A DNA stretch of 41,096 nucleotides from a virus, in IMG/VR virus record IMGVR_UViG_3300009320_000046, positions 1 to 41,096 of that record. One strand, given 5' to 3'. The notes under the pieces were generated by a model. It saw only the letters and a list, made by a program, of their open reading frames with translations. It searched no databases and was not told where the DNA came from. The translations under genes were made by a program, and so were the position numbers. Positions 1 to 25,531 of the stretch are shown here, piece after piece; position 1 is the first letter of the stretch; each line of letters opens with the position of its first letter.

Positions 1-978
1 CCCATAGGGTGATGTAGAAATTGCTCCAAAATATAATTGGTTGTTAGTAGTAGCACCACCAAGAGTAAGAAGACCATTAGGAGTTGAACCAGAAGTTGCT
101 GGAGCACCATTACTTCCTCTCACTTCTAAAGGTAATACTGGCCCCGTCGTCCCGATGCCGACGTTGCCGTTATATGAAATCCGAACAGATTCCTGCATAT
201 CATCTGTACTGCCAGTATTATTATGAGTATAAAAGGCTAATCCAACATAATCTCGTTCAGATGTTTCTTGAACTCCTGCAATAGCAGCGAGTCTGCGGTC
301 GACTCTAGAGGGACCCGAAAATGAAATTGAGCCTCCCACATTCTGACCTCCAGACCCAGCGCTAATATCTTCTAGATAAAGGTTGTCTACTCCCGTAGCA
401 CCACCCCCTAAAGCAAAAGAAGTCGCGTTCTTTATTACAACCTTCTGAGTCGGCCCCGTCGTGCCGATGCCGACGTTGCCAGACTTAAAATAACTTCCCG
501 GCGTAACTGTATCTACTGTAAATACATCTCCCCCATCTCCATCTTTACGAATTAAGAGGGCTTCTGTAGAGTCTACATCTATAATTACTGCGCCTTCGAC
601 TTCGGAATTTACAGTAAGATCTCCCTGCACAGTGAGATTTCCCCCTATCTCTCCGTCGCCAGTAACATAGAAGTCATTATCTGTACCTATAACAGTAGGC
701 GTGCCTGAACCGATTAGAAGTGTATTTGTGAGGGGATCGTTTGAAGTGTCGAGTCTTAGATATGTTGCATCGCCTGATGTAGGCGAAACGATATTAAGTG
801 TATAGTCTCCAGGATCATTCTCATCTATAGCAGAATCAGGAGATATTCGGAGATTTTTAAGCTTATCTTCTATAAACCCACTTTCGTCGTGGATTGTAAT
901 TCCCGTAACGTCCGTATCCGCGTGCGCGTACGAGCAGACTAATGAGAATAGGATTAAACTAATTAATGTCCGACGCAT
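1..978 (-). CDS. Tail-fibre-like protein with signal peptide, 5' part (runs off left edge)
   Basis: The frame is open from ATG at 978 to base 1 (326 codons) with no stop, so the gene leaves the window. An AGAAGG ribosome site precedes the ATG, which overlaps the end of the coiled-coil gene by 20 bp. The first 20 residues form a Sec signal peptide (basic MRR, hydrophobic core, SYAHA then D). The remainder is Gly/Thr/Ser/Asn-rich beta-type sequence with two copies of the motif GNVGIGTTGP, common in long fibre and adhesin-like proteins of environmental phages and bacteria. It probably forms a distal fibre for host recognition. The C-terminal part is likely the open frame at 40621-41096. A signal peptide on a virion protein is unusual. 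Function is inferred from composition and motif. Confidence 0.7.
   Translation of the reverse strand, partial: MRRTLISLILFSLVCSYAHADTDVTGITIHDESGFIEDKLKNLRISPDSAIDENDPGDYTLNIVSPTSGDATYLRLDTSNDPLTNTLLIGSGTPTVIGTDNDFYVTGDGEIGGNLTVQGDLTVNSEVEGAVIIDVDSTEALLIRKDGDGGDVFTVDTVTPGSYFKSGNVGIGTTGPTQKVVIKNATSFALGGGATGVDNLYLEDISAGSGGQNVGGSISFSGPSRVDRRLAAIAGVQETSERDYVGLAFYTHNNTGSTDDMQESVRISYNGNVGIGTTGPVLPLEVRGSNGAPATSGSTPNGLLTLGGATTNNQLYFGAISTSPYG
140..168 (-). repeat. 29-bp fibre repeat, copy A
   Basis: This GC-rich element encodes the GNVGIGTTGP motif of the fibre gene. It matches copies at 452-480 and 40853-40881 at nearly every base, far more conserved than the flanking fibre sequence. Confidence 0.85.
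452..480 (-). repeat. 29-bp fibre repeat, copy B
   Basis: Second in-frame copy of the GNVGIGTTGP-coding element. It differs from copy A at one base. Confidence 0.85.
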
Positions 979-1828
979 TAATTTTCCTTCTTTTCATTAA
1001 GTCTTTTAGCTTACCATCAGTAATCCGAAGTTCCAATTTAAATGCTTCAAGGTTTTTCTTTTCAGCCTCGTTTGAAAGTTTATCTGCTTTAACCTTTTCT
1101 CTTTCCTTCTCTATGTGTTCCTTCTCTTTTTCTGCTTCTTTTTTTAACTTATCTATATCCTTTTTTATACTTTCTATCTCTTCTATCTTTTTATTATATT
1201 CTCCTATAAGTCTTTTTGATTCATTGAGCTTTATCTGTAATTCATCTGAAACTCTTTTTGCCTCCCCTTTTACTGAATTCGTTTCTGATATATCCTGCTC
1301 TAATATTCTTTTCTTGCCCCTTAAGTCTTCCTGTAATGCCTTTGCTTCTCTAAGGGCTTTCGTAAGATCATCAGATTTATTTTTATTTCTTACTGCGATT
1401 GCTTCACTATCTCTTTTTTCTATTATTAAATTCTTCTCTCTTTCCGTTAGATTATTTTGCAGGACTCTGTTTACTTCTTCCTTCTTTAAAACACTTATCT
1501 CAAGTATGTCTAAGTCTTTTTCTTTCTTGAATAATACAGATGCTAAGTTGTCGCTTTCCCTTTGCTTTTTCTGTATTTCGTTTAAATTCTTCTGTTTTTC
1601 TTTTGCCTCTTTATCTTGTCTTTCTTTTAACGCTTCCTCAAATTCTATTGTCTTTTTTTCTATATCTTTTACTTTTTCATCATACTTTTCTGTTATATTT
1701 TGTAATTTTTTTTCTGCAACTTCTATTTCTTTAATGAGTGCATCTTTTTTTGTCTGGAATCCATGTATCTCGGAGAGCAAAATATTAATCTTCTGAATAT
1801 TCTCTTTTGGTTTTGTGTCTATTGACAT
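959..1828 (-). CDS. Long coiled-coil protein, probable virion-associated
   Basis: The 289-residue product is almost entirely charged heptad-like sequence (Lys/Glu/Leu/Ile-rich, about residues 10-270) with no enzymatic motif, so an extended coiled coil is expected. AAAGGAG precedes the ATG at 1828. It lies between a small structural gene (1844-2167) and the fibre gene (start 978, 20 bp overlap), so a role in fibre attachment, head-tail joining or an internal virion filament is possible. No family is recognised; function is unknown. Confidence 0.75.
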   Translation of the reverse strand: MSIDTKPKENIQKINILLSEIHGFQTKKDALIKEIEVAEKKLQNITEKYDEKVKDIEKKTIEFEEALKERQDKEAKEKQKNLNEIQKKQRESDNLASVLFKKEKDLDILEISVLKKEEVNRVLQNNLTEREKNLIIEKRDSEAIAVRNKNKSDDLTKALREAKALQEDLRGKKRILEQDISETNSVKGEAKRVSDELQIKLNESKRLIGEYNKKIEEIESIKKDIDKLKKEAEKEKEHIEKEREKVKADKLSNEAEKKNLEAFKLELRITDGKLKDLMKRRKINASDIN

Positions 1829-1843
1829 AAGCTTCTCCTTTTA

Positions 1844-2167
1844 TTAAGGAAATAATTTTATCTTTAAATTTGTACTCCCTGTCGTTGTTATGAAAATGTT
1901 AGTTACCAAGAGTCTTTCTAAAAGCGGATCTATAACATATTTCTCTTGTGTTGCAGTAAGCGTTATAGAATGATTGGACGCAGAGTTGAACTTAAACGTG
2001 ATTGTAGCGTCAGTTATTATCTCCACCATCCTCGCGACACTCACATTACTAAATGTATTTGCTTGCTGCAAGCTTAAATTATAATCAGTCTGCGCGCCGA
2101 TTGTAAACTCAGCACTATCATAAACTGAAACTTCCTGCAAATTTGCAAAAACTCTCTTATCAGCCAT
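1844..2167 (-). CDS. Small structural-type protein
   Basis: The ATG at 2167 is preferred over the GTG at 2170 because AAGGAGG sits five bases before the ATG but only two before the GTG. The 107-residue product is beta-rich with a final KIKLFP. Its segment AEFTIGAQT resembles AEFYVGAQT in the upstream gene (2194-3117), and the two share 14 identical bases around the GAQT codons, suggesting a shared assembly motif or local duplication. Position between the capsid and fibre genes suggests a virion component. No family is recognised. Confidence 0.65.
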   Translation of the reverse strand: MADKRVFANLQEVSVYDSAEFTIGAQTDYNLSLQQANTFSNVSVARMVEIITDATITFKFNSASNHSITLTATQEKYVIDPLLERLLVTNIFITTTGSTNLKIKLFP

Positions 2168-2193
2168 CACTTCCTCCTTGTGTGAAGTTATTA

Positions 2194-3117
2194 TTAATCA
2201 GCTGCAGATGTTGTTACAAGCTCCCAATCTGTGTCTGCACCAGCTGTATTTACCTTTAAATATAACTTACCTGCTGAGGATGAATACATTGACCCAATTG
2301 CGCCTTGTGTACCAACTTCAGTCCTTACAGCATTACGAGTAGTCTGCGCGCCGACATAAAATTCTGCCCCATTTGAAAATTCTATCTGGGAAATCCCTAT
2401 TGTTGCACCACTCATGTCTATACCGCGTGTCCATCCAGTGTTTGCGCCAGTATCCTGAATGATGATCGCTGCATCAACCGCTGTGGCTAGAGAATTATTG
2501 ACATTACGAATCCTTACGCCATATTCAGTAGTTGCCACTAGGCCTTCATTCTTGACTATAACATCCACTCCTCCAAATTCAGTCGTACATAGGCCAAAAT
2601 TCTCTGCACTAACCTGTAATCCTCTAATTGTAGGCGCAAGTGTATTTACTGTAGGCGCATTACCGACTCTATTTAAAGATGTGATAGTATTCTCTAATAT
2701 CCCAACTTGCCCATCTTGACGATTCGATACTGTGGCATTTATACCACGGAAGATAAAATTAGTATCGTTGTCAGCATAGTTCTTAGTTGATATGAGAAGC
2801 CCTGCGTCATTACTGTCTCCAGTTGCAACTTTACCAGTGTCACGGCTGACAAGTATCCCTAAACCGTAATTTTTCTGTGCTGCTGTACCTATAAGTGATC
2901 CACCCTTCGTAAGCTGTCCACTTGGAGCAGTAGCAAATCCTCCATCAGTAATCAGCATAGAGTAATTTCTATCTCCTGCAACTCTTTTAAGTGTGGAATT
3001 TACCCTCAACTCACCTTTGACTAAAAGATTATTTGCATACTCATGTATAGCTGCAGCACTGACATACGAAGCCACAACCAAACAAATTATAAGTGTCAAA
3101 GCCAAAATCTTTTTCAT
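2194..3117 (-). CDS. Exported structural-type protein downstream of capsid gene
   Basis: The 307-residue product starts with a clear Sec signal peptide (MKK, hydrophobic residues 4-20, then SAAA). The mature part is rich in Gly, Asn, Thr and Val with repeated short beta segments, like fibre or spike proteins. Its C-terminal segment (SMYSSSAGKLYLKVNT, then DWELVTTSA) is of a type often found at the ends of phage surface proteins. AGGAGGTG precedes the ATG. It directly follows the capsid gene across a strong hairpin. It may be an adhesin or a head or tail decoration; the signal peptide suggests passage through the envelope. Function inferred. Confidence 0.7.
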   Translation of the reverse strand: MKKILALTLIICLVVASYVSAAAIHEYANNLLVKGELRVNSTLKRVAGDRNYSMLITDGGFATAPSGQLTKGGSLIGTAAQKNYGLGILVSRDTGKVATGDSNDAGLLISTKNYADNDTNFIFRGINATVSNRQDGQVGILENTITSLNRVGNAPTVNTLAPTIRGLQVSAENFGLCTTEFGGVDVIVKNEGLVATTEYGVRIRNVNNSLATAVDAAIIIQDTGANTGWTRGIDMSGATIGISQIEFSNGAEFYVGAQTTRNAVRTEVGTQGAIGSMYSSSAGKLYLKVNTAGADTDWELVTTSAAD

Positions 3118-3136
3118 TTCTACACCTCCTGTTTAA

Positions 3137-3181
3137 AGTTATAGGAGCGGGGCAAAGGAGATAACCCGCTCCTGATAACTT
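3137..3181 (-). other. Intercistronic hairpin after capsid gene
   Basis: The arms 3137-3151 and 3165-3181 pair as AGGAGCGGG/CCCGCTCCT plus a flanking AAGTTAT/ATAACTT, about 16 bp with one bulge and a 13-nt loop. It lies just after the capsid stop. Only three T residues follow, so it looks more like an mRNA-stabilising or processing stem than a strong terminator. The stem is followed by TAACTTTAAA, also seen after the hairpin at 20798-20830. Confidence 0.7.
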
Positions 3182-3194
3182 ACCGCGCTAAAAT

Positions 3195-4121
3195 TTATGC
3201 TACAGCTGTTGTTATAAGGTAACCACACAATGCACTGACAAGCTTCTCATCAGTGTAATGGCTAACTCTGATAACATCGCCAATTTCTTTCTCGTGCCTA
3301 TATTTACGAGTCTGAAATGCTTCCTTCTGCATCGTATAACCAAGTGACAAGCTCCTTAAACTAAGACCTTTACCTGGCCAAGCCAATAATGCGTTCTTGC
3401 CCCAGAGCCTAGTTAGAGATGCAGTCTGTCCTGCCTTTGCAGAGTTATACAAACTCGATGCAACCAAGACCTCCTTAACTCCAAATATCCCAGCCATGAG
3501 TTCTGCTGATACAGTACCGCGCTGTGTATATTTGATGAGTTCTATTAACTGCGGATGACGTTTCAACTGGTCAAAAACTTCTTTCCCCAATACTAATATA
3601 AGCTCACTCTCAGGAAGCCCCGTAGCAGCTGATATAGTATTCTTACCAGTATCAATGTCTCCTATCGGATCGCTATTCACGTAATCATTCCACTGACTTG
3701 TAGTAGTTAAAGCTGTCGTCTGTGTAATGACTGAGTTATCCGTTACAATGTCTACAACCCTCTTCTCATATCCTAACAGAACTTTATCTGTTACATAGTT
3801 CGTTGCATCCATATCTAAATTTAATGGACTTGTTACCGCCAACCTATCATCATCATCTATCACGTCCTCAAGACCGTAACGAAATGCTGCATAGGTGTCG
3901 TTCGTAATTTCAAAACTCGACCTGTTGTATCCAGAACCCGACGTCCTCTTTAAAGAAGGTAAGTCAAAGTTCTGTTTCCCGTAAACAAAATATGTCCCGC
4001 TTACCTCAGCTACAGGAACTACAGGAAATATCCGCGAAGCTACAAACCCTGAATTCTTAAATTTCAATGATACATTGGTCAAAACTGGATCTACTGGATG
4101 TATATCTGAACGTGTCCTCAT
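3195..4121 (-). CDS. Major capsid protein (HK97-fold type)
   Basis: The 308-residue product forms the icosahedral shell. It has the layout of compact capsid proteins encoded next to Mu-type protease/scaffold genes: an N-terminal segment aligning repeated protein on the shell, a central spine-helix region (around ELILVLGKEVFDQL), a WGKNALL segment, and a conserved C-terminal part (RKYRHEKEIGDVIRVSHYTD). AGGAGGTGGGG precedes the ATG. It follows the protease/scaffold and decoration genes in transcription order, the usual Mu-like arrangement. Assignment rests on sequence pattern and gene order; confidence is high for the role, moderate for the exact family. Confidence 0.85.
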   Translation of the reverse strand: MRTRSDIHPVDPVLTNVSLKFKNSGFVASRIFPVVPVAEVSGTYFVYGKQNFDLPSLKRTSGSGYNRSSFEITNDTYAAFRYGLEDVIDDDDRLAVTSPLNLDMDATNYVTDKVLLGYEKRVVDIVTDNSVITQTTALTTTSQWNDYVNSDPIGDIDTGKNTISAATGLPESELILVLGKEVFDQLKRHPQLIELIKYTQRGTVSAELMAGIFGVKEVLVASSLYNSAKAGQTASLTRLWGKNALLAWPGKGLSLRSLSLGYTMQKEAFQTRKYRHEKEIGDVIRVSHYTDEKLVSALCGYLITTAVA

Positions 4122-20993: not shown

Positions 20994-21698
20994 TCACCTC
21001 CCTTCATCTGTATCAGATTTTTCCTGATGCACTTCAATTTTCTTTTCCTTAAACTGGTTATACCAGTTCTCTGCCACCTTAAATGACTCCTCTCCAGCCA
21101 CCCCTGTCGGTATAACATCAAACACTGCAAACGTCCCAAGATCATTTGATGTTACTTTACTGAAGAGCTTGTATTTCTTGGAGAACATATCTCCGCCTGA
21201 ATACATAGCGAGTGATAAAAGCTTCTTACCTGCCTTAAAGGATGTATTACAGAATGATACAATGATCGGCATCTTGCATCCTTCAAAGTAACAGAAGAAG
21301 TTTAGAAACTTCGTAGCCGCCGGCCTCTCGCCATTAGGCCCAAATATTCCTTCTGTTTTTACCCTCTCATCATCAGGGTTATTGCTCCTCCAAATCTCTG
21401 CCCCCGCATCAAATGCTGGATCAAAGTTAGGATCATCCTTCTTGCGCGGGTTAAACCTGATCCATCGCGTGAATTTAAAAATAGGCACAAACTCCTCTGG
21501 CAATATCTCCTCTGTAATACTGTTGATAATCTGTCCGAGTTTATGCGTTGCTTCTTCTCTTAACATCTGCGGGGATGTGGCCTGTACTAGAGATGCGCGA
21601 GGAATAATGAGATCCTCTTTGTTTGTAGACTCTTCAAACCCGCGTGCCGGTACTTTGGCTAATGCGCCTTCGGTTTTCTTTTCCAGTTCCTGATTCAT
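20994..21698 (-). CDS. Putative single-stranded-DNA-binding or annealing protein
   Basis: The 234-residue product has an N-terminal disordered part, then IIPRASLVQATSPQM, and a long beta-rich core (EFVPIFKFTRWIRFNP, then KFLNFFCYFEG, MPIIVSFCNTSFKAGKKL), ending in an acidic/Lys tail with ENWYNQFKEK. This layout is common in phage proteins encoded beside SbcC-like ATPases and primases and thought to bind single-stranded DNA. No sequence motif proves it; assignment is by layout and neighbourhood. AAAAGGAGGAGC precedes the ATG. Confidence 0.5.
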   Translation of the reverse strand: MNQELEKKTEGALAKVPARGFEESTNKEDLIIPRASLVQATSPQMLREEATHKLGQIINSITEEILPEEFVPIFKFTRWIRFNPRKKDDPNFDPAFDAGAEIWRSNNPDDERVKTEGIFGPNGERPAATKFLNFFCYFEGCKMPIIVSFCNTSFKAGKKLLSLAMYSGGDMFSKKYKLFSKVTSNDLGTFAVFDVIPTGVAGEESFKVAENWYNQFKEKKIEVHQEKSDTDEGR

Positions 21699-21715
21699 TT
21701 TGCTCCTCCTTTTTT

Positions 21716-22108
21716 TTATAACTTTTTAAACCTTAATCCCTGCTTAAAATAATACTCAAATATCCCCGGCACCTCCCTTCCTGAAGTTAGTAATGTATCA
21801 ACAAATTTTGATAGACTTGATGGATGTATTGCCTCTCGAATTAAAGCACCATCGCCTCTATCCCTGACAAATTTGAAGACATCATCTTCATTCTCTTTTT
21901 GATATGAAGCATAGAGCCTTGCTTTTGGAATTATGATAGAGCCTAGGCCTTCATATTTTATAGTCTTGATCTCCTTATCAGAAAACGATTCAATGATGGA
22001 TGACTCTACCTTATTAAGTGAATCCTGTACCTCAGCCAGTTGTTCTGTCAGTACTGCCTTCTTCTCCCTTAATTCTATTAAGTTTACTACCATGTCACGT
22101 TCTGTCAT
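21716..22108 (-). CDS. Conserved-type 130-residue phage protein in recombination cluster
   Basis: The N-terminal third is a coiled coil (IELREKKAVLTEQLAEVQDS), followed by a short beta domain (KTIKYEGLGSIIIPKARLY) and a helical end with IREAIHPSSLSKFV and FEYYFKQGLRFKKL. Proteins with this layout are frequent next to phage single-strand-binding and nuclease genes; exact role is not known. AAAAAGGAGG precedes the ATG. Confidence 0.6.
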   Translation of the reverse strand: MTERDMVVNLIELREKKAVLTEQLAEVQDSLNKVESSIIESFSDKEIKTIKYEGLGSIIIPKARLYASYQKENEDDVFKFVRDRGDGALIREAIHPSSLSKFVDTLLTSGREVPGIFEYYFKQGLRFKKL

Positions 22109-22454: not shown

Positions 22455-22846
22455 TAGAGTAAATTCCTTTCTTTTAAGTAACACCACATTTTACCTAATG
22501 ATTCTGTCATAGTATAATTTGCTTCTGTGCGAGCAAAATTTTTATCTAATTTTCTTTCTCTCTCGTTAACCCAAGAATAATGACAATAATAAACTTTATT
22601 TTCTTTATATAATCTTATATTATCAGGTAACTTTTCCATTAACTCTATTGCGTCAGGTGCATGGAAACAAAGCCAATAATCTTCTTGATAAACATGTCTT
22701 GCTCTATAATCTCCTATCAAAACACAATCCTTATAATCTGGTTTGTCAATCTCTTTATGCACATACCAATACCTCTCCGCCGCATAATCCCACCCCAATT
22801 CTTTCATACGCTTCGCTAATTCTAAACTTGTTACTTTATTAAACAT
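22454..22846 (-). CDS. Conserved-type phage protein (MxNKVTSLELAK family)
   Basis: The second ATG (22846) is eight bases from AGGAGG and is preferred over the first (22852, two bases). The N-terminus FNKVTSLELAKRMKELG, the Trp/Tyr-rich middle and the DAIELMEKLPDNI segment are typical of a widespread hypothetical family in phages and prophages. Function unknown. It overlaps the nuclease gene by 16 bp. Confidence 0.65.
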   Translation of the reverse strand: MFNKVTSLELAKRMKELGWDYAAERYWYVHKEIDKPDYKDCVLIGDYRARHVYQEDYWLCFHAPDAIELMEKLPDNIRLYKENKVYYCHYSWVNERERKLDKNFARTEANYTMTESLGKMWCYLKERNLL

Positions 22847-23115
22847 TGACATATCCTCCTCGCCTCTTCAACCGACCTAACTACATACGCCCGCCCATCC
22901 ACAGAATTTATCTTATTAATGGTATACTCCTGAAGCTTTGAAAGCTTACCCTTCTCTGTTTTTAGCTCAAAAAAGATATGAATACCATTTGGAAAAATGA
23001 TAAGGAAATCAGGATAACCAGAGAAATATCTTTCAGATAAAGGCATGAGCAAAGCCTTAGGGTAATTTTTCTTGATAAATCTTATAAATCTATTTCTGAA
23101 CAGGCGTTCTGACAT
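22831..23115 (-). CDS. VRR-NUC family nuclease
   Basis: The 94-residue protein is a minimal VRR-NUC domain: SGYPDFLIIFPNG supplies the metal-binding Asp, FFELKTEKGKLSKLQ gives the Glu-x-Lys of the PD-(D/E)XK core, and the end is GRAYVVRSVEEARRI. Stand-alone phage VRR-NUC proteins are structure-specific nucleases for replication intermediates or Holliday junctions. It lies between the SNF2 helicase and small early genes. Confidence 0.88.
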   Translation of the reverse strand: MSERLFRNRFIRFIKKNYPKALLMPLSERYFSGYPDFLIIFPNGIHIFFELKTEKGKLSKLQEYTINKINSVDGRAYVVRSVEEARRICQCLIK

Positions 23116-23158: not shown

Positions 23159-25531
23159 CTAACGTGTCAATATATTTTCAAGTATTTCGATTGCTTTTCC
23201 TTTTTTCTGCAAGACTTTATACACGACTTCATCAATGCTATCTTTACATAAAAGATGTATGTAAGTACATTTATTTTCTTGAGATATACGATGAGTTCTG
23301 CCTCGTGATTGGATGTATTGTTCATAACTATAAGATAATGAAAAGAAAATCTGTATAGAGCAATTTGTCAATGTAATTCCATGAGCTAATGATTGCATAT
23401 TAGCTATTAAATATTGATACCTACCTTGCTTAAAATCATTTATACATTGATATTTATCTATTGTTTTTCCATAAATTGATATAGCTTTATCCCCCAGAAC
23501 AGATTGTATTTTTTCTGTTTCATATACAAAGTTTGTCCAAATGATAGCCTGTTGATTTCCTATCTCTTCTAATAGAGTCAAGAGTTCTCTTAATTTTGGA
23601 TTTTCTCCTAATTCTAATATTTTTCTATCTTCCCCTATTCCAAAACCACTGCAAATCTCTCTAAGTTTTAAAATCTTAGTGAGGGCGGTCTGAGCGGTCA
23701 CATATGTATTTTTAATCTCTATTATAAGATCCTTTTTCATATCTTCATAATACCGCCTCAGTTTTGGTGGTAACTCTATCTTCCTCACCTCATCTATCTG
23801 ATCCGGCAGATCCAAGCAATCCTTTTTCTTAGCGTAGTGGCAATGAGGCAACAATCTCTTCAGTAACTCCTCTTTCCTCTTAGGTGTTATGGCGTATTTC
23901 CACCCTTGAGTAAACATCCTGCGCGCCATGTCTTTAGTCATGATCTGCCCTTGAAATCTCTCAAGGCCTCCCTTACGCTCCAGATGAAAATAATAATTTT
24001 TGAATGGCCCAAATCTCTCATGGAATATCCCCGGGCGTATGAAATTCATCTGCGCCCAATATTCCCATTCTCCGTTCGGTGCAGGAGTGCCACTCATAAT
24101 GACGCGGTGTTTAAAGATGTGTTTTATGCTAAGGAGTTTCTTAGTGATTTGAGCCTTTGGATTTTTGAGCTTTGAGGAATTATGAACTAAAACATCATTC
24201 ACAGAAAATGATGGATGATTTTCTATTTCTAAATCATAGAATATATTTTGTTTAATACTTTTTCTTGATTCATCATTACTTCTTTGTTTGTAAATCTTAA
24301 TATCTTCCACCCTTGCGAAGTCAAAAGTTTGTCCTTTTTTATATCTAATTTTCTTCTTGCACAATGACTGAATCCATCTACTTCTATTCCTATTTTTTGG
24401 GATGGATATGCAATATCGATTTTGTAATTGGTCGAAAAACCAAGGCCTCTTTTTACATTTGTAGGCACTGCAAATTCGGCTACCCACATTTTTCCCAATA
24501 ATTTTAATAATTTGCTTTGTGGAATAGGCAGGGGCCGTCCATTTCCACCTTGGAGAATTGGTTTCCACTTGATAAGTTTTAATTTTGCTGATATTTTTTT
24601 TCTTACTTTTAGATCTCTTGATGGGCAAAGATTGCGTATTCTCTCTATTTGTTTTATAGCATCTGGATGAGATGAAGCCAACCATTTTTTTAATTTTAAT
24701 GAAATTTTTCTGCTGACTTTGTCGTTGTAGATTTTTGATCGAATTTCTGGTTGAGCCATTCGCCATTTCGCTGAACAAGATGTGTTGCAAAAACGACGTT
24801 TCGGGGTATCTGCATAATAAATTTTTCCGTTTGGATGTTTGTTTTTTGTGACAGCTTGAAAGATTTTTTTGCAAAATTGACATTTCTTTTTGAGCATATC
24901 TAACCCCCACTAAAATATCATGCATTTTTAAATCTTGTGCTTTTTTCCATCCGTTTATAGTTAAAAAGGGATGATTTAATGAACATTTTATCCATTTATT
25001 ATTATACTTAATTTTAATCCAAGAGTCAAGTTTTTTTATCCTACTACTTAATACTTTACTTTTTCCTAAGCAATTTATAATATAATCTCCTTTTTTAATA
25101 TTTTTTATTTTTCTTTTTCCTTTAGGAGTATCTATTAAAGTATCTCCATCAAAACATTCATCCAGTACGATCATCCAGTTACCAGTAAACATTGACATAT
25201 TAAGTTTTTTAGTTAACATGCTTTCATAATTAGTAATGAAGATATCCCCTGCGCCTGTGCCTACTTCTACACTCTTCCTTAAATTACACCAACATAAATC
25301 TGTCCATCTTTCTATATCCTCCCCCCAAGCAGCTTCAATCAGCGAGATAGGGCAGACAACGAACAGCTTCAAACCGGGATCAAGCCTACGCAAGACCGAG
25401 TAGATCTCCAAAGCTGTTCGCGTCTTGCCCAAACCTATCTCTGCAAATATGGCTAACTTACCATTATTTTTAATAGCCATGTCTACTGCTTCTTGTTGGT
25501 GATTAAAAAGTTTTAAATTTTGTTTAGACAT
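23159..25531 (-). CDS. SNF2-family helicase interrupted in frame by an intein
   Basis: The 790-codon gene encodes a 464-residue SF2/SNF2 ATPase (exteins 1-125 and 452-790) plus a 326-residue intein. Motif I is EIGLGKTRT (31-39), motif Ia CPISLIEAAW, motif II LDE|SSK split by the intein, motif III MSGTPAPN, and motifs V/VI ANMQSLAHGITL and QSRGRTHRISQ. Phage SNF2 enzymes act in DNA repair or replication. Splicing is needed to rebuild the DEAH-like box, so the intein probably controls activity. GGAG lies eight bases before the ATG. Confidence 0.9.
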   Translation of the reverse strand: MSKQNLKLFNHQQEAVDMAIKNNGKLAIFAEIGLGKTRTALEIYSVLRRLDPGLKLFVVCPISLIEAAWGEDIERWTDLCWCNLRKSVEVGTGAGDIFITNYESMLTKKLNMSMFTGNWMIVLDECFDGDTLIDTPKGKRKIKNIKKGDYIINCLGKSKVLSSRIKKLDSWIKIKYNNKWIKCSLNHPFLTINGWKKAQDLKMHDILVGVRYAQKEMSILQKNLSSCHKKQTSKRKNLLCRYPETSFLQHILFSEMANGSTRNSIKNLQRQSQQKNFIKIKKMVGFISSRCYKTNRENTQSLPIKRSKSKKKNISKIKTYQVETNSPRWKWTAPAYSTKQIIKIIGKNVGSRICSAYKCKKRPWFFDQLQNRYCISIPKNRNRSRWIQSLCKKKIRYKKGQTFDFARVEDIKIYKQRSNDESRKSIKQNIFYDLEIENHPSFSVNDVLVHNSSKLKNPKAQITKKLLSIKHIFKHRVIMSGTPAPNGEWEYWAQMNFIRPGIFHERFGPFKNYYFHLERKGGLERFQGQIMTKDMARRMFTQGWKYAITPKRKEELLKRLLPHCHYAKKKDCLDLPDQIDEVRKIELPPKLRRYYEDMKKDLIIEIKNTYVTAQTALTKILKLREICSGFGIGEDRKILELGENPKLRELLTLLEEIGNQQAIIWTNFVYETEKIQSVLGDKAISIYGKTIDKYQCINDFKQGRYQYLIANMQSLAHGITLTNCSIQIFFSLSYSYEQYIQSRGRTHRISQENKCTYIHLLCKDSIDEVVYKVLQKKGKAIEILENILTR
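24179..25156 (-). other. Intein in helicase motif II, with nested endonuclease in another frame
   Basis: Residues 126-451 of the helicase frame. Block A begins CFDGDTLIDTPKGKRKIKN (Cys1), block B is CSLNHPFLTING (Thr/Ser-x-x-His), block F FYDLEIENHPSF, block G NDVLVHN with penultimate His and terminal Asn, and Ser follows as the +1 residue. All splicing residues are present. Between about residue 212 and 400 the intein frame does not look like a folded protein; that DNA encodes the endonuclease in the +1 frame. The intein frame has no stop. Confidence 0.88.
24229..24897 (-). CDS. Vsr-like (EDxHD) homing endonuclease nested out of frame in the intein
   Basis: The 222-residue protein has a Cys4 zinc finger (C6, C9, C37, C41), NUMOD3-like repeats (SRKISLKLKKWL, RKKISAKLKLIKW), and a Vsr/DUF559-type nuclease: D161, IEVDGFSH (E172, D174, H178), D189 and SQGWKILRFTNKEV. 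This is the EDxHD signature of I-Bth0305I-type homing endonucleases. ATG 24897 follows TGGGGG by seven bases. Its stop falls within the codons for intein block F. It would cut an intein-less helicase allele and so spread the intein. Start and end sit exactly between the N- and C-terminal splicing parts. Confidence 0.88.
   Translation of the reverse strand: MLKKKCQFCKKIFQAVTKNKHPNGKIYYADTPKRRFCNTSCSAKWRMAQPEIRSKIYNDKVSRKISLKLKKWLASSHPDAIKQIERIRNLCPSRDLKVRKKISAKLKLIKWKPILQGGNGRPLPIPQSKLLKLLGKMWVAEFAVPTNVKRGLGFSTNYKIDIAYPSQKIGIEVDGFSHCARRKLDIKKDKLLTSQGWKILRFTNKEVMMNQEKVLNKIYSMI

Follow-up and report, generated by a model that had tools for sequence, protein, structure and literature searches.

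An unsplit phage intein with a putative homing endonuclease gene overprinted at +1

The helicase locus and its nested gene

The window analysed here is a viral DNA stretch of 41,096 nucleotides (IMG/VR record IMGVR_UViG_3300009320_000046). Its minus strand carries a helicase gene interrupted by a predicted intein, and within this intein, in another reading frame, a predicted nuclease gene. The features of the locus are as follows.

23159..25531, minus strand: SNF2-type helicase ORF of 790 codons including the intein, with matches to SNF2-rel_dom, Helicase_C and phrog_62 (DNA helicase, 1e-97)
25157..25531, minus strand: N-extein, C-terminal end ...WMIVLDE (Walker B)
24179..25156, minus strand: predicted intein of 326 residues, from Cys1 (CFDGDTLIDT...) to ...VLVHN, then Ser+1
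24902..25156, minus strand: Hint N half with blocks A and B, intein residues 1-85, pLDDT 94-98
24910..24912, minus strand: TAG stop in the nuclease frame, separated from the nuclease ATG by four codons
24904..24908, minus strand: GGGGG, a weak candidate Shine-Dalgarno sequence of the nuclease, 6 nt 5' of the ATG
24320..24901, minus strand: spacer of the intein frame, free of stops and overprinting the nuclease gene, covering intein residues 86-279 and predicted to be disordered
24229..24897, minus strand: gene for a predicted zinc-finger and EDxHD/DUF559 homing endonuclease of 222 aa, +1 relative to the helicase and intein
24229..24319, minus strand: segment coding in both frames, for intein residues 280-309 and for nuclease residues 193-222, each model showing ordered elements
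24179..24319, minus strand: Hint C half with blocks F and G, intein residues 280-326, from alignment and AlphaFold2 model
23159..24178, minus strand: C-extein (SSKLKNPKAQ..., the remainder of the helicase), from the ORF and Pfam matches

All 790 codons of the helicase frame are free of stops. A Pfam search of this frame revealed SNF2 and Helicase_C matches in the exteins, together with Intein_splicing and Hint matches, and the insertion point lies directly after the DE of the helicase Walker B motif. Residues of the class 1 type are present, namely Cys1 (CFDGDT...), the block B histidine (SLNHPF) and VLVHN followed by Ser. Among 40 intein loci C1, H62 and N326 are invariant and H325 is nearly so. 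In an AlphaFold2 model built on an alignment of 40 homologues, residues 1-85 form a confident Hint half (the pLDDT range listed above holding over residues 1-80) and most of residues 280-326 form the other half (pLDDT 86-96, lower at about 291-300), while residues 90-279 are predicted to be disordered (pLDDT mostly 42-62). The best PDB match of this model in Foldseek was gp41-1, and other inteins were also matched (E down to 7e-7). Judged from sequence and model, the insertion is a class-1-type intein with a Hint fold, for which splicing activity is predicted.

The nested ORF is offset by +1 from the helicase ORF ((25531-24897) mod 3 = 1). It starts at about intein codon 86, immediately past block B, and its stop codon overlaps L309/E310 of block F (YDLEIENHPSF). 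It matches DUF559 (5.7e-15) and a zinc-finger family, the cysteines of the finger lying at the N-terminus, and residues E172, D174, H178 and D185 are invariant in 45 sequences. The AlphaFold2 model of this frame, built on an alignment of 45 homologues, has a mean pLDDT of 93 and superimposes on 3R3P (I-Bth0305I) with a Z score of 11.7 and on Vsr with a Z score of 9.8. The label of an EDxHD or Vsr-like homing endonuclease fits the nested ORF, and cutting activity is predicted.

Towards the 3' end, about 90 nt (24319-24229) give ordered strands or helices in both predicted proteins. Read in the nuclease frame, this dual-coded segment has a mean pairwise identity of 0.40, and read in the intein frame one of 0.35; that of the intein-frame spacer is 0.19, the lowest of all segments. 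The 3' dual coding is, by alignment and modelling, considered real. An earlier note on this DNA had proposed an intein of 326 residues with blocks A, B, F and G in an open helicase frame, a +1 EDxHD endonuclease of 222 residues running from after block B into block F, and credible protein in both frames over the C-terminal ~100 bp. All three proposals agree with the ORF, Pfam, AlphaFold2 and structural comparisons given above.

Elsewhere in the window, genes near the helicase (20994-22108 and 22831-23115) resemble gp33/gp34-like families of the Pam3 cyanophage and, next to the helicase, a VRR-NUC nuclease; these matches suggest a Pam3-like phage.

Recurrence of the layout and its fixed register

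At the DNA level the window region matched nothing among the phages searched, and recurrence was therefore sought at the protein level. A tblastn search of the nuclease against annotated phages returned 40 records, in every one of which the match lies under a CDS called helicase, coil-containing, P-loop or hypothetical protein. In the eight phage records examined, the nuclease is not annotated at the locus, and in each of them it lies at +1 to an intact intein-bearing helicase. Isolated phages with the nested layout include Vibrio phages, Pseudomonas phage MR14 and Corynebacterium phage phi673.

For a broader census, IMG/VR and bacterial genome contigs were searched and the loci were then scored with HMMs. 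In 190 loci the Hint N and Hint C halves share one frame, free of stops between them, from which the nuclease is offset by +1; these loci correspond to about 180 non-redundant nested loci from phages and bacterial contigs. No nuclease was found in frame or at +2 between Hint halves in this census, and the intein frame was open in 190 of the 192 Hint-flanked loci. The unsplit, dual-coding form that the earlier note had read from one sequence is thus the same frame relation in all 190 loci. A nuclease-independent search using only Hint N yielded 70 distinct inteins, 66 of which have the nuclease at +1, with three mini-inteins and one other; the 'mini + nuclease' calls in this search (L379, L381 and L419) are probably misplaced C-half matches.

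The host proteins are mostly helicases, with some clamp-loader ATPases and a terminase-like group (L040, L051 and L073) whose assignment rests on weak matches lying partly within the intein. Nearly all insertions occur directly after the DE of Walker B. From these sequence comparisons, the nested gene-in-gene design is judged to be widespread and selected. In three loci (L061, L075 and L077) the nested element lies within very large ORFs of 1721-2545 codons; the ORF of L061 matches Helicase_C, and that of L077 matches DNA methyltransferase, helicase and DarB-like antirestriction families.

The register itself can be explained by the genetic code. At +1, a stop in the intein frame needs a nuclease codon ending in T followed by a codon beginning with AA, AG or GA, and each NNT codon has a silent NNC twin, so that intein-frame stops can be removed silently. 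For 91% of the nucleases, the other frame would be closed one or more times by a stop that no silent change can avoid (Met before I, M, T, N or K). The register is fixed at +1 because only +1 allows silent NNT-to-NNC removal of every intein-frame stop.

Expression of the nuclease

Across loci the nuclease starts at about intein codon 87 (10th-90th percentile 78-99). Shine-Dalgarno words of at least 5 nt precede 19 of 72 nuclease starts, compared with 12 of 783 internal ATGs (P = 2e-14), while a word of at least 4 nt is present in only about 39% of loci. The GGGGG of the window, whose function can only be presumed, scores 0 with a stricter Shine-Dalgarno word list. In locus L057 a stop codon of the nuclease frame immediately precedes the ATG.

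Programmed +1 ribosomal frameshifting near block B would instead produce a fusion of helicase N-terminus, intein N-terminus and nuclease, with no free nuclease. Such a mechanism is unlikely, although one fixed +1 shift would also account for the invariable register and a clear Shine-Dalgarno sequence is missing at about 60% of loci. Stops lying just 5' of the ATG in several loci, directly adjacent in L057 and four codons away in the window, leave little room for frameshifting, and the upstream open length of the nuclease frame varies among loci. In addition, Shine-Dalgarno words are enriched at the nuclease starts, and the silent-change argument accounts for the register without any frameshift. 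Separate translation of the nuclease from an internal start, independent of the host protein as the earlier note had supposed, is the best reading of these sequence features.

Selection on the two frames

In the 180 non-redundant nested loci, the stop-prone sites contain 0 T and 1974 C. Because openness was the criterion for the nested group, this zero holds by construction; independent evidence comes from the 190 open loci among 192 and from the controls. The other NNY sites of the same loci contain 4732 T and 3446 C (58% T). The T:C ratio at stop-prone sites was 24:11 in fractured relatives, 94:43 in free-standing relatives and 285:262 in DUF559 controls without Hint halves, which include many genome contig matches (L141 on) to ordinary DUF559 proteins. 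None of these three groups showed the C bias. In the nuclease of the window, 20 of 20 NNY codons before AA, AG or GA end in C, and elsewhere in the gene the NNY codons number 52 with T and 11 with C. The probability that the intein frame of the window is open by chance is 7e-16, and about one locus of the 180 would be expected to be open by chance. A chance open frame was rejected as an explanation on these two figures. Sequencing error was likewise rejected: 190 loci share the frame relation, both intein ends are in the host frame (the reason that the earlier note had given against a single error) and the layout recurs in isolated Vibrio, Pseudomonas and Corynebacterium phages.

Separate estimates of dN/dS for the two frames showed that the nuclease frame is under purifying selection. 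For the nuclease frame, dN/dS was 0.04-0.19 in close pairs, whose nucleases are 97-98% identical, and 0.12-0.36 in more distant pairs; the overlapping intein frame gave about 1.5-2.9 and 0.66-1.77, respectively. With dN/dS mostly near 1 or above, the spacer is therefore kept stop-free and is not conserved as a peptide.

It is highly improbable that the spacer peptide is a functional domain, for example in the regulation of splicing, with stop avoidance as a by-product. Some spacer positions, such as L244 and Q245, are almost invariant, but these overlie conserved nuclease codons. The spacer's dN/dS, its identity (below that of every other segment), its predicted disorder and the presence of mini-inteins without a spacer at the same site all argue against such a function. 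It is scarcely credible that the nuclease was inserted in an RNA intron or a dead intein whose open frame reflects chance or an assembly error. In favour of this reading, group I introns also harbour EDxHD nucleases (PMC3943268). Against it, the host frame conserves intein blocks A, B, F and G, including Cys1, His-Asn and the Ser/Cys at +1, openness by chance is as improbable as calculated above, and the layout recurs in isolated, sequenced phages.

Allele states and related forms

Vibrio phages carry the helicase site in three states. The site is empty in 234P10 and 1.251.O, contains a mini-intein without nuclease in K453, K389 and 13VV501A, and holds the full element in K391 and others. K391 and 234P10 share about 94% identity in the flanks, between which the element is inserted exactly and in frame. 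In locus L053 the intein frame is intact and the nuclease is interrupted by a stop codon. Distances between nucleases and between Hint domains co-vary (Mantel 0.60, 0 of 2000 permutations). The allele states, L053 and this co-variation fit a homing cycle, which may be supposed from the sequences. The nuclease and Hint trees agree only partly, and some reshuffling between the two is possible.

The only homologues found with a closed intein frame are L136 and L319, and these fit the model. Here a double stop terminates Hint N immediately past block B, the nuclease and Hint C are separate, and stops occur throughout the spacer, the nuclease still being +1 to both Hint halves. By sequence, these two loci have the layout of fractured genes. 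The link to fractured genes that the earlier note had suggested gains support from them, as it does from the best match of the intein model being gp41-1, the type case of a split intein from fractured loci. In L031 the nuclease adjoins a relic Hint C half. In the nuclease tree, non-nested forms occupy scattered positions between the nested ones, with a minimum of seven changes in a tree of poor outgroup and rooting.

Several other arrangements were observed. In L119, a Spirochaetaceae contig, a free-standing nuclease relative (3539-4004) lies directly upstream of an intein-free helicase and has the T bias of a non-overlapping gene. The free-standing relatives in L081 and L091 do not lie inside Walker B but adjoin coding sequence that contains the Walker A motif of a helicase, and their spacer frame is full of stops. 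The helicase of Vibrio phage 13VV501A (L101, locus 923-3424) has, besides its Walker B mini-intein, a second and different insertion at Walker A. This insertion has intein-like ends, following ...TGAGK with CHRKGTLI... and ending in ...THN before TVV, and the helicase apparently contains two inteins in one gene.

Proposed mechanism and comparison with known systems

The computed architecture, recurrence, register, stop avoidance, purifying selection on the nuclease and allele states are very probably those of a mobile phage protein-splicing element, whose unsplit intein carries a homing endonuclease gene overprinted at +1. For such an element we infer splicing, internal initiation, cutting and homing. 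The host ATPase would be translated straight through the Hint N half, a disordered spacer, encoded by the nuclease gene when read in the host frame, and the Hint C half. The Hint halves would fold together and splice out along with the spacer, restoring the Walker B motif. Ribosomes would also start within the mRNA just past block B and produce the zinc-finger EDxHD nuclease as a separate protein. The nuclease may then cut intein-free alleles near the codons of the DE-C/S junction, and repair from an occupied copy would insert the whole element.

In conventional large inteins, the homing endonuclease (e.g. LAGLIDADG) is an in-frame domain between blocks B and F. The nested form shares with them the Hint domain, the position of the endonuclease between blocks B and F and a homing cycle with empty, full and mini alleles, but its endonuclease is predicted to be a separate protein in another frame. 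I-Bth0305I, the EDxHD homing endonuclease of a mobile intron, shares the catalytic fold; it is, however, encoded in an RNA intron, and its sequence match to the window nuclease is weak (E = 0.02).

Dassa and colleagues reportedly described, in 2009, fractured genes in which an EDxHD or Vsr-like nuclease gene lies between the two halves of a phage-type intein. The Vsr-like nuclease gene between intein halves is common to both forms. In fractured genes, however, the host gene is broken, whereas in the window and the 190 loci it is continuous, with the intein frame kept stop-free by selection. The nested form is probably the unbroken sister of fractured phage genes.

The closest published case is ShiLan, where a homing-type endonuclease is likewise overprinted in another frame of an insertion that is open in the host frame, and where the distribution among phages is also disjunct. 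ShiLan differs in that no intein or splicing domain was found there, in contrast to the Hint halves here, and in that its nuclease is of the HNH type in the 'third' frame, whereas the present one is EDxHD/DUF559 at +1. The ShiLan work also concerned a small phage set, with no detectable ribosome-binding site. Apart from it, no description of an out-of-frame endonuclease inside an unsplit intein was found in the literature searched, the coverage of which is incomplete, and an earlier mention is possible.

Implications

The nested form represents a third way for a homing endonuclease to reside in an intein, being neither an in-frame domain nor a free-standing gene between split halves. It is represented by about 180 non-redundant loci and by isolated phages whose deposited records annotate the host gene only, and it supplies many gp41-1-like inteins with natural insertion tolerance. 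It also provides a clean natural example of gene overlap: the protein is conserved in one frame, and nothing beyond freedom from stops in the other.

Further, the nested form offers a testable route to split inteins. A stop entering the spacer beside an internal start for the C half would produce a split intein with the nuclease already in place. Whether the overprinted form is both a stable, major class of mobile inteins in phages and the stock of fractured genes and natural split inteins is, in our view, an evenly poised proposition. If true, silent-site selection on the parasite's gene would keep the host protein intact, and the selfish gene would pay for the host frame.
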